A stretch of 64,000 nucleotides of DNA. Source: Owenia fusiformis (Eukaryota; Annelida; Polychaeta; Sabellida; Oweniidae). The DNA lies in contig CAIIXF020000010.1 in assembly GCA_903813345.2 (NCBI GenBank), positions 34,337,425 through 34,401,424 on the forward strand, given 5' to 3'. Every line of letters begins with the position of its first letter. Position 1 is the stretch's first letter. Shown here in pieces: positions 6,501 through 59,621 of this stretch. The position numbers and the translations under genes are program-made. The notes below the pieces were generated by a model. That model had not been told where the DNA came from, did no database searches, and saw only the letters and a program-made list of their open reading frames with translations.

Positions 6501-9500
6501 TTCTTTGGTAGAACTGCATACTTCAAGTTGGACCTGTTGAAACTTTGCACAAACCTACAATAGATCCATAGTAGAACAAACGGTGGAGAACTTTTGGATC
6601 AACCCTCGTAAGTTATTAAAACAGTGATATAGACATCTTAAATCCTTAATCCTAAATGAAACCAACTTCTTAGTAAATATCTAGCATATTAATTTAATTG
6701 AACGTATGGACTGCAGTATACTCTAACTTTATGGTATGGTATGGTATGGTATGGTATGGTATGGTATGGTATGGTATGGTATGGTATGGTATGGTATGGT
6801 ATGGTATGGTATGGTATGTTCTTCCCTGTTTGGATTTAAAATTTCATTAATTTATATATTCATCAATTTAAACAATTTATAATTCCGGTTTTTAGTTTTA
6901 AATTACCACTTTTAGTTTAAAATTACCATTTTTAGTTTGAAACTACCACTGTTAGTTTGAAAATACCATTTTTGGTATGAAGTTACTATTTTAGGCTTAC
7001 TCATAGTGGGATGTCTTACCATTTTGGGTTTTTCATATGGAGCTGATGTGTTATATCTTTGCGTACTCTTAGAGTTGCTGTAGCAGTTAGAGCCATCATA
7101 GGGACATTGGGAAATGTCTCTCGGAGTGACTTCAGTTTCTTGTAATCAGGCCTGGAGAAATAAAATAGAGTTCATTTATGTTTATGTCATATCTTTGCGT
7201 ACTGTTTGCAATAGTAGTTAGAGCCATCATAGGGATATTGGGAAATGTCTCTCTAAGTGACTTCAGTTTCTTGTAATCAGGCCTGGAGAAATAAAACAGA
7301 GTTCATTTATGTTTATGTCATATCTTTGTGTACTGTTTGCAATAGTAGTTAGAGCCATCATAATTGGGAAATGTCTCGCTAAGCGACTTCAGTTTCTTGT
7401 AATCGGGCCTAAAGAAATAAAGTTTATTCCATCATGAATCTTAATAGATCTACCCGCTTGGCTGGTCCAAGAACTGCACGGATTATACAGGTTTTTAATA
7501 ATGTACATAAAATCTTGAGTAATTCTCATGATGTTAAAAAAATAATTTCACATACAACATTTTGATAACATTGGATAAGACTGCAATATAAGCCAAAGTG
7601 GGTCAAACTTTATATGGGGCCTTTAATTACCTGAAATCATGTCCCCATTGGCTGACGCAATGTGCCTCATCTATGACAAACCTATTCAACATATTGTGGC
7701 AATACTTTATATGGGGCCTTTAATTACCTGAAATCATGTCCCCATTGACTGACGCAATGTGCCTCATCTATGACAAACCTATTCAACATATTGTGGCAAT
7801 ACTTTATATGGGGCCTTTAATTACCTGAAATCATGTCCCCATTGGCTGACGCAATGTGCCTCATCTATGACAAACCTATTCAACATATTGTGGCAATACT
7901 TTATATGGGGCCTTTAATTACCTGAAGTCATGTCCCCATTGGCTGGCGCAATGTGCCTCATCTATGACAAACCTATTCAACATATTGTGGCAATACTTTA
8001 TATGGGGCCTTTAATTACCTGAAATCATGTCCCCATTGGCTGACGCAATGTGCCTCATCTATGACAAACCTATTCAACATATTGTGGCAATACTTTATAT
8101 GGGGCCTTTAATTACCTGAAATCATGTCCCCATTGGCTGACGCAATGTGCCTCATCTATGACAAACCTATTCAACATATTGTGGCAATACTTCATATGGG
8201 GCCTTTAATTACCTGAAATCATGTCCCCATTGGCTGACGCAATGTGCCTCATCTATGACAAACCTATTCAACATATTGTGGCAATACTTTATATGGGGCC
8301 TTTAATTACCTGAAATCATGTCCCCATTGGCTGACGCAATGTGCCTCATCTATGACAAATCTATTCAGCATATTGTGGCAATACTTTATATGGGGCCTTT
8401 AATTACCTGAAATCATGTCCCCATTGGCTGACGCAATGTGCCTCATCTATGACAAACCTATTCAACATATTGTGGCAATACTTTATATGGGGCCTTTAAT
8501 TACCTGAAATCATGTCCCCATTGGCTGACGCAATGTGCCTCATCTATGACAAATCTATTCAGCATATTGCGACCATACAAATTCTTCAAACATGAGATGA
8601 GCTTGTTACTTGCACTGAGCTGAAAAAGCAACAATCATATGATAAACAAATGCAGGGATTTGAGCATCCTCCTTAAAGCATGTGCACAGAATGTGTTTCT
8701 CTTTAATGGTAAGAAGGTATTCAGGATCTTCAAAGCCTGCAAATGGAGGATGGAGTTTTGATACAATTTCTGACATCAGGCATACTGAAAAAAGTTGCTC
8801 AACTCAAATAATATGTCACCACTTCTGGTATTGACATAAAAATTATGAAATAAATTGAATTGAATTGAAATAATGAAAATGAAAATTAACTAATGAAAAA
8901 TATTATTGAAAGTTAGATGTTAGAATAGGAGACACAACTGACCACTCAAAGTGAAAACCTACCTTTTCTGGCGTAACATAGAGGAGTTTTACTTCGGGGT
9001 AACGGAGATAGAGTCGCTGATATATATTCTCAGCCTCGCCCTGAGATATGTCCCCTGAAAGATGGTTTGCAGCCACGTCAAGAGATTCTAATCGACTTGT
9101 CTAAAGGAGAGAAAAATACATTTACAAGTACATGGATGAAATGTACCTAACTTCAGGAACATGTTATATAGTTTTTCCTTTCTCAACTTAACCAATCTAT
9201 CACTCATTTTGAAGATAAGTCAGAGATGTATCATGATTTTGAAGGGACTGTCTAGGAAACAATAGTCATAATAATATTTTTGGCAAACTTTTATTGTACT
9301 TTTTCTTTAGAGTCACCATCCACTTAAGATCAAGAGATTACCACCTACCTGATCATGTATAAGAGACTTAAGAGGAGACACTACAATTGTCACGCCATCT
9401 TGACATACTGCAGGTAGCTGGTAACACAGACTTTTACCTCCTCCTGAAAATAGTTTTATGAATTGTTAACTCTTTGAGTGCATTGCTCATATGATGTCAT

Positions 9501-57600: not shown

Positions 57601-59621
57601 TGTCTAGATTTGTTCAGATTTTACACTTGAATATCCACTGTATATGTTTATCTCCTTGTCACCATGTTCATGTATTTTAGAGTGGTGTAATGACCTTCGA
57701 TAGCAAGTCGCTAATACAGTCTCAGCTGTAGTGGCTAGCCCTTATGGCTCAGGGGTAGAGCGTCTGACTCGAGAGCGGGAGGATCTTGGGCTCGATTCCC
57801 GTACGCGGCATTGAATTTAGCACATTCTCTTTCGAGTCTAGTATCTGGCTCGGTACACTACAGCTACCTGACGAGCGTGCCCAAGGGTCGTTACAGTGGT
57901 ATCTTAACAGTTCAACTAGGTGGAGACATGGGCACATATGTTATCAACAAACAAACACCCAATACAATTTGAATTCCTGTATTTCAGAGTGGTGTCTTAA
58001 CAATTCAACTAGGTGGAGAGCTTGGGACATATGTTATCAACAAACAAACACCAAATAAACAAATATGGCTGTCTTCACCAACCAGGTTAGTTTGTGATTG
58101 GGTGCATCTTTATTACCTGATACTGTTTTACACTATTTGCAAACATTCATAGGATCAAATCTTGCAGTATGACAAGGTGTGATACGATACAACCCCTCCC
58201 TAATTGCATATTTGCAGTTTTTCCAAATTCTATAGCAAAGGTGTGATGAGATACAACCCCTCCCTAATTGCATATTTGCAGTTTTTGCAAATCCTATAGC
58301 AAAGGTGTGATGCGATACAACCCCTCCCTAATTGCATATTTGCAGTTTTTGCAAATCCTATAGCAAGGCATATAACGTGAAGACACTCTGACTTGATGGA
58401 AATCTAATCCATATATTTCAAAGGGGTTGCGTTTGTACCCAATTTTGACCGCCCTCCCCCCCTTGATTTGCATTGTAACAAACACAGTTTTGCATTTATA
58501 CCCAACACAATCTCCCCCTCCCATAAATAGCATCGGCCTAAAATCCATGTGTTTACATCCTAAGTTTACATGTGGTTTCCCGCAAATTGGAGTGACTTTT
58601 CAAATCAGCTCTTAGCATAGGATTTGATTCTCTCTATGTTATAAACTTACTTAAAAGAAATCAACTTAATAGTGCAAAATGCTATTGTCCTTATAATAAA
58701 GAAATCTTCAATTTTGCAAATTAGACTCCTCAGAAATACTCAGGTTACACAATAGAGTTTTTGAATCATTTTCTGGAGAAAGTAATTTTCTCTTTATTTG
58801 TGACATATATATTTGTGACCTATATTATCAAAGAAAAAAACTGCTTATGGTTCGATTGGGCTGCTTTTAAGTATCTCAGTCCAAAATTGGCCTAAGAGAA
58901 TGTCAATAGATGGCAGTATTGGATTTATTTACATATTGCAAATATTGGATAACAATTTCAAGATGGATTCAACTTCTAACATGTAAAAAGACAACTATTT
59001 GGTGTATTAGAGTAATATTCGACACAAACAAGAGGAGGCAATAACCCAGCATTTAAAGATGAACCTCATGTTGTAATACAAACCTATAGGCTCACTTAGA
59101 GGTTCACTTTTACATGAAAATAGATACGTTCATGAATTATGGGTAATTCCCCCCTCTTGATCATACCAATCATACCAGAAAGTGAAGACAAACCCCGACC
59201 TTCCATCTTTATGAGTCTTCGTATACGTTTCACATCTAACCTCATTTTATTTTGTTAAATGCATGAATTGTTGTCAAAATATCAATGATTACCTACAAGA
59301 TATTTGATTACTTACAAGAAATTACATAAATATTAATCTAATCTCTTCCCATTTAGCACTTCTAATATCTTGAGATATATTGTACATGCATGTTTGTCAA
59401 AATATTCAAAAATATTTCATGATTACATAGGAAGTAAGTTATTAATCTGATGCATTTTATTCATTTTCAGTGGCCCCAAAAGATTTAACTATACAGATGG
59501 TACATGGCTATATAGACACACTGGAGAGACCCTACATGGACTTCTATCTAGTGAACTCACAATAGCACTAAACACTGACATAAACCTTGACAATTGTGCA
59601 AACTCGACGAGGCAATCATAG
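54631..59621 (+). CDS. FXN: Frataxin, mitochondrial iron-sulfur cluster assembly factor
   Basis: Stimulates sulfur transfer in the mitochondrial cysteine desulfurase-scaffold complex (family knowledge). Exons 54631-54762, 56403-56500, 57022-57145, 57988-58085 and 59471-59621 join in phase into 200 residues; human is 210, also five exons. Exon 1 is a Cys/Arg-bearing presequence with few acids, fit for mitochondrial import; it is the least certain exon, supported by phase and donor GTAAGG. Exon 3 gives [20 protein letters not shown] with FEDL, the acidic helix that binds metal. Exon 4 gives [20 protein letters not shown] with the key Asn and Trp. Exon 5 gives [20 protein letters not shown] and ends at the TAG at 59619. 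A broken duplicate of exon 4 lies just upstream of the real one. Confidence 0.95.
55686..55883. mobile_element. MITE with CAGTGTCGTAGCCAG ends in frataxin intron 1
   Basis: Inverted ends CAGTGTCGTAGCCAGC and CATGGGCGTAGCCAGG, flanked by CAAGG (55681-55685 and 55884-55888). It shares GTTTGCATCACTGTGAGC and TATGGTGCATTCTAAGCATT with the longer piece at 14217-14395. Confidence 0.8.
57675..57960 (+). pseudogene. Second copy of frataxin exon 4, split by a tRNA-derived element
   Basis: The acceptor-like TGTATTTTAG and AGTGGT at 57681 continue after the insertion with ATCTTAACAGTTCAACTAGG through CAAACAAACACCC. Apart from the insertion the copy is 93 bases upstream of the true exon. The matching reading is lost and the donor end is absent, so it is taken as a dead exon copy. 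Confidence 0.9.
57687..57894 (+). mobile_element. tRNA-derived SINE-like element with inverted ends
   Basis: Flanked by AGTGGT (57681-57686 and 57895-57900). Contains pol III A box TGGCTCAGGGGTAGAGCG (57751) and B box GGGCTCGATTCCC (57787), correctly spaced, as in a tRNA head. Unlike most SINEs it has no poly(A) or A-rich tail; instead its termini are inverted: GTAATGACCTT and GTAACGACCCTT. Confidence 0.75.
58160..58370. repeat. Three-unit tandem repeat, about 62 bases, in frataxin intron 4
   Basis: Units contain GATACAACCCCTCCCTAATT and GCATATTTGCAGTTTTT. The first unit is slightly diverged. It does not include an exon edge. Confidence 0.9.

Follow-up and report, generated by a model that had tools for sequence, protein, structure and literature searches.

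Tandem duplications across splice junctions in the genome of the annelid Owenia fusiformis and their likeness to amphioxus mirage minisatellites

Duplicated exon edges in the BLM, VWD-domain and frataxin genes

The stretch of 64,000 nucleotides of the Owenia fusiformis genome analysed here (contig CAIIXF020000010.1, positions 34,337,425 to 34,401,424; hereafter the window, part of a genome of 498 Mb in 525 contigs) contains a BLM gene on the minus strand, 336 joined residues of which match the Bloom syndrome protein (1.9e-123), and, according to domain matches, a VWD-domain gene on the minus strand and a frataxin gene on the plus strand. A first-pass annotation, whose exon numbers are retained, had pointed to six short tandem duplications in these genes, each described as including exactly one exon edge. 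At every one of the six places a single copy is continuous with the body of the exon, the additional ones being found beyond the true junction, towards the intron. The duplications and the exons they touch are the following.

21800..22656, minus strand: array of eight 106-bp units derived from the 3' portion of BLM exon 7 with its donor (repeat detection, junction string)
22552..22691, minus strand: BLM exon 7, acceptor at 22691.5 and true donor at 22551.5 (splice strings)
19867..20070, minus strand: diverged duplication (two copies) that takes in the greater part of BLM exon 9 as far as the donor (offset 120, 74% identical)
19997..20104, minus strand: BLM exon 9, donor at 19996.5
7607..8578, minus strand: array of 9.9 units of 97 bp, derived from the 3' portion of BLM exon 13, DEAH motif included, with its donor
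8504..8619, minus strand: BLM exon 13, 116 bp, true donor at 8503.5
7075..7421, minus strand: array of 2.6 units of 131 bp, derived from the 5' portion of BLM exon 14 with its acceptor
7020..7151, minus strand: BLM exon 14, true acceptor at 7151.5
51007..51125, minus strand: two-copy duplication of 59 bp, derived from the 5' portion of VWD exon 4 with its acceptor
50891..51058, minus strand: VWD exon 4, acceptor edge at 51058.5
57895..58057, plus strand: 5' 70 bp of frataxin exon 4 copied upstream (offset 93, 90% identical)
57988..58085, plus strand: frataxin exon 4

Duplications in the window were sought jointly with Tandem Repeats Finder and two detectors of our own, and local duplication was recovered at all six places, even though a blastn-based scan of the window failed to pick up that of VWD exon 4. 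Three order-1 Markov shuffles of the window, used to assess chance origin, yielded no segment scoring 16 or more, the detection threshold being 22, a value that the BLM exon 9 duplication just attains. None of the six looks like a chance event. The description of one exon edge per duplication holds for four of the six at a margin of 6 bp (BLM exons 7, 13 and 14 and VWD exon 4), and both the donor-side form (BLM exons 7 and 13) and the acceptor-side form (BLM exon 14 and VWD exon 4) occur as had been stated. It does not hold for the other two, as the BLM exon 9 duplication barely passes the donor, with homology extending 1 bp to 10 bp beyond it depending on the alignment, and the frataxin copy begins at the first exon base, no homology to the intron being found. 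At a margin of 10 bp only three of the six span an exon edge, and the intronic part of the VWD exon 4 unit amounts to only about 8 bases.

In the larger arrays the splice signals are retained in most copies. The junction string AAG|GTACAG of BLM exon 7 is found at seven places, the true junction included, and extra copies 1 to 7 differ from the true copy by zero to three of 90 exonic positions. Likewise, the junction string CAG|GTAATT of BLM exon 13 occurs at nine places, again including the true junction, and the units of that array repeat the DEAH stretch together with the donor. Three differences from the true exon 13 are common to all nine extra copies and five are common to eight of the nine and, since the extra copies share these differences, the array has been homogenised apart from the true exon. 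In the BLM exon 9 copy, read by eye, the donor is lost.

The window holds 20 tandem clusters, 15 of which remain after removal of those with a short period, and 9 of these 15 contain no recognised exon. Three regions serve for comparison:

71..2702, strand not assigned: tandem arrays with units of 168-367, without a recognised exon
3861..4862, strand not assigned: array of 6.2 units of 162 bp adjoining BLM exons, without a recognised exon
58174..58366, strand not assigned: array of three 64-bp units inside a frataxin intron, without a recognised exon

A galactose-3-O-sulfotransferase frame is also present in the window. Between BLM exons 9 and 10 lies a LINE-like frame with endonuclease and reverse transcriptase domains (15518-18172), and an unmatched frame of 294 residues at 11770-12651 may belong to this LINE-like element or to another element. 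Elsewhere, a 15-bp minisatellite forms inverted arms about 4.4 kb apart (36495-36659 and 41061-41167), whose flanks are partly direct repeats 98-100% alike (for example 34780-35079/41502-41801 and 35797-36096/42020-42319).

Frequency of edge-spanning duplications

The first-pass annotation had proposed that so many junction-spanning duplications reflect either a process that favours junctions or a genome prone to short tandem duplication, in which only the exon-containing cases are recognisable. In the window itself, which was chosen for its duplications, 41 edges were considered, and 3 of the 15 events span an edge at the 10-bp margin, against 0.68 expected (P 0.026); with the margin narrowed to 6 bp and the threshold set slightly higher, 4 of 14 do so (0.75 expected, P 0.004). 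One of 42 splice strings in the window was not located. A sample outside the window was assembled from the same genome, comprising 61 stretches (285,050 bases) around exons found by kinesin, myosin and kinase domain searches, that is, drawn from three gene families. It includes 164 exon matches, of which 151 are kinesin or myosin rows (151 of 236 lying in the fetched stretches, with 17 repeated rows of the array on contig C2 left out) and 13 are kinase rows (13 of 144 used). From the AG and GT signals near the ends of the exon matches 288 splice edges were set. The main count considers units of at least 25 bp and requires that a unit extend 10 bp beyond the edge in both directions; arrays with a short period (under 40 or 25 bp) were removed beforehand, and the expectation counts each array once with its unit placed at random within its own stretch. 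In stretch L004 the automatic edge proved incorrect and was reset by hand; the edges of L029 and L024 were shifted by hand too, which removed L029 as a match. The array in L011 was known before its stretch was chosen, and counts without it are given alongside.

Of the 49 sampled duplications nine span an edge, where 2.23 are expected (exact P 0.0002; simulations gave 0.0005 and 0.0002), and without L011 the count is 8 of 47 against 2.14 (P 0.0008). The nine, situated in L004, L011, L014, L023, L024, L025, L031, L054 and L057, affect seven acceptors and two donors and represent 9/288, or about 3%, of the conserved exon edges; sampled units measure 29-166 bp, against a range of 59-131 bp for the four clear cases of the window. 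The excess is found across variants of the count. With units of at least 40 bp, 8 of 40 span an edge (2.06 expected, P 0.0006); automatic edges only give again 9 of 49, with L029 in and L004 out, and 7 of 40 (P 0.003) when units are at least 40 bp. The strictest variant, which combines automatic edges, units of at least 40 bp and exclusion of L011, gives 6 of 38 against 1.97 (P 0.011). As to the margin, 11 are seen against 3.33 expected at 0 bp, 9 against 2.67 at 6 bp (P 0.0009) and 6 against 1.70 at 15 bp (P 0.005). A duplicated acceptor in L042, copied threefold, was missed by the automatic edge list and left out of the main count; with it, 10 are found against 2.40. In a smaller sample, comprising 55 stretches, 7 of 39 events spanned an edge where 2.31 were expected, and at the 15-bp margin 4 did so where 1.91 were expected. 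L060, in which an exon tail is copied, and L029, with four exonic bases, are marginal cases.

These counts bear on whether a mutational process favours exon-intron junctions themselves, with a two- to fourfold excess over introns, a reading that we entertain only tentatively; transcription-tied breaks or template switching, nucleosome edges and splice-site sequence are examples of what might cause it. Besides the excess as such, its persistence when only events of 93% identity or more are taken (6 of 20 against 1.07, P 0.0003; 5 of 19 against 1.03, P 0.002, once L011 is removed) speaks for such a process, as does the base composition of the non-spanning duplications, whose GC content is that of the background and which are thus not GC-rich. 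The same two results led us to reject two other accounts of the excess, namely that it stems entirely from slower decay of copies containing exon sequence, and that it is caused by GC bias of duplications. Nevertheless, several observations weigh against a preference for junctions. When whole arrays are placed as blocks, 12.3 spanning events are expected and the nine seen are no excess. In short arrays the signal is weak, with 4 of 29 against 1.44 for those of up to 3.3 copies (P 0.05) and 2 of 19 against 0.75 for those of up to 2.5 copies (P 0.17), and introns near edges show little rise in duplications, the density of non-spanning ones per 10 kb being 1.61 within 150 bp of an edge, 1.42 at 150-500 bp and 1.24 beyond 500 bp. 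Moreover, the sample is small and covers the three families named above, and no mechanism is seen.

The choice between placing the unit and placing the whole array decides whether there is an excess at all. We judge unit placement to be right, because an array of n copies has n copies of an intron position and one true exon edge. The opposing reading, which we regard as possible but would not lean towards, is that there is no preference, and that a minisatellite-rich genome combined with ascertainment accounts for what is seen, since only exon-containing duplications are recognisable. That the genome is prone to duplication is clearly part of the picture: tandem arrays make up 7.4% of the 285 kb sampled, whereas 3.1% of the edges fall inside one, 40 of the 49 sampled duplications span no known edge, and the majority of the non-short-period window clusters lack a recognised exon, as noted above. 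Against an absence of preference stands the significant excess outside the window once one ancestral unit is counted per array. The proposal of a process favouring junctions is accordingly supported in part, by the unit-placed counts of the sample and not by block placement, low-copy arrays or density near exons, and a two- to fourfold preference for junctions in this genome is suggested and possible but not proven. Less likely than not is the stronger proposition that the junction is a hotspot of tandem duplication, hit at about four times the intron rate per event and affecting some 3% of conserved edges, which by extrapolation to all genes would amount to thousands of loci.

Repeated exons were also met in other parts of the genome. 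One kinesin exon forms part of a tandem array with a unit of 159 bp and about 18 copies (G000:C2:23266359-23269174; L011:1346-4189); the repeated part runs from the acceptor of the exon onward, and a short spacer separates successive copies. An exon of the myosin head (model positions ~18-84) is present 12 times at a spacing of roughly 0.3-2 kb (G000:C9:37986009-37994334), which looks like the alternative-exon cluster of a muscle myosin gene. Family searches also found a kinase exon (G000:C10:2256896-2257205) and a helicase exon (G000:C4:29162068-29162455) each twice within about 200 bp, likely further exon-containing tandem duplications; among 25 rows of ABC transporter matches no exon was repeated at short spacing.

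Origin and fate of the extra copies

Junction arrays are common in this genome, and the same anatomy as in the window is found elsewhere in kinesin (L004, L014, L023, L024, L025, L042, L054, L057 and the array of L011) and myosin (L031) genes. We consider it probable that these arrays are "mirage" minisatellites, a term applied to amphioxus genes, in which a segment covering a splice junction has been copied in tandem and the extra copies are left as intron, predicted to be silent. Most likely they are for the most part ordinary minisatellite events that happen to be located on splice junctions. In such a scheme, a segment of about 30-170 bp, covering an exon edge by chance, would be duplicated in tandem, and the exon body would stay attached to a single copy, the outermost on the exon side. 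The splice site of this copy would be the nearest to the other splice site of the exon. Under exon definition the exon-attached splice site would be the one chosen, and the remaining copies could persist as silent intron. A junction-spanning duplication would then be nearly neutral, because splicing would use the exon-attached copy, while a duplication inside the exon would break the protein. Some of the junction arrays may later expand and be homogenised like other minisatellites.

The alternative that the copies are in use, either as alternative acceptors and donors or as nascent exons and introns, seems to us very unlikely. Many copies do keep their splice signals, the L011 kinesin array repeats its exon from the acceptor on some 18 times, and intron-gain models have been published. 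However, use of a distal donor leads to a stop at once in BLM exon 13 and three codons on in BLM exon 7, and the distal acceptors of BLM exon 14 and VWD exon 4 run into stops, as does the frataxin copy; conserved motifs such as DEAH would, in addition, be repeated or lost. An assembly artefact is more improbable still: assemblies tend to err at tandem repeats, but the copies differ from one another in a patterned way, and the cases are spread over several contigs and different genes.

The BLM exon 13 array arose locally. Its unit found no match elsewhere in a genome search, which scores best candidates only, and a dispersed satellite was rejected on the ground that this unit, the only one searched, matched its own locus alone. 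For the frataxin copy, mRNA-templated copying was likewise rejected, as no continuation into the neighbouring exon could be read by eye.

Two points weigh against the view of these arrays as neutral mirage minisatellites. The copies in frataxin (57895-57965) and in L060 (435-521) are exon-only or mainly exon and stand about 20 bp off the junction, and such fragments are not what one obtains from simple tandem duplication of a junction. Furthermore, a neutral account leaves the event-based excess at edges unexplained.

Related systems and meaning

In amphioxus, mirages have been described in Adh3 and in the globin genes BflGb6 and BflGb9 as minisatellite-like duplications of the intron-exon boundary with a unit of 10-160 bp; evidence from reverse transcription PCR was published for them, and they have already been suggested as a source of introns (PMC3087553). 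They share with the Owenia arrays the occurrence on the donor or the acceptor side, the splice signals kept in many repeats and a boundary copy left out of homogenisation. Whereas the amphioxus cases concern a handful of cephalochordate genes, those reported here belong to another phylum, occur in several genes of a single window and come with a frequency estimated from a sample, 9 of 288 edges. Outside amphioxus, no report of mirages or of minisatellites at splice sites was found under these words in the literature searched, which lacks most subscription papers. The kind is probably the one already known from amphioxus, and the present arrays a further case of it in another phylum. As to the phylum, an erythrocruorin-linker family confined to annelids has three matches over its cut-off in this genome, whereas hemerythrin, which many annelids possess, gave no match and so speaks slightly against an annelid.

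In potato, an RdRp gene gained an intron through a tandem duplication across an intron-exon boundary (PMC4974935). As in the window, the duplication extends from an intron into the exon that comes next; there, however, a new spliced intron resulted, while here the DNA sequence gives no sign of spliced copies. More generally, the tandem genomic duplication model of intron gain invokes an AGGT proto-splice site (PMC3443670, PMC2891723), and, according to a 2012 review, tandem duplication stands alone among the mechanisms put forward for intron gain in having been demonstrated in vivo (PMC3443670). What that model shares with our cases is the tandem duplication of a short segment within a gene, by which splice signals are copied. 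In the model, though, an exonic AGGT is duplicated and the intron lies between the copies, whereas here an existing junction is contained in the unit and an existing intron is lengthened. The model calls for an exonic segment; the four clear units of the window hold both exon and intron, the frataxin copy consists of exon sequence only, and that of BLM exon 9 almost entirely. Finally, the metallothionein genes of earthworms, annelids likewise, have intronic minisatellites and extra exon copies that are absent from the final transcript (PMC12783039); unlike in Owenia, no junction-spanning repeat units are described in the available part of that work.

Among the sources proposed for new introns, whose origin is an open question, is tandem duplication across splice sites. 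Mirages have so far been a curiosity of a few amphioxus genes, and a second, distant genome in which about 3% of the conserved edges sampled carry such a duplication would make a proper count of junction duplication feasible. Such a count would show the rate at which junctions are duplicated, how often the copies are spliced, and how the rate at junctions compares with that in introns. Should junctions prove to be hotspots, the material from which introns and exons are gained could be observed directly in this annelid, as a live system.

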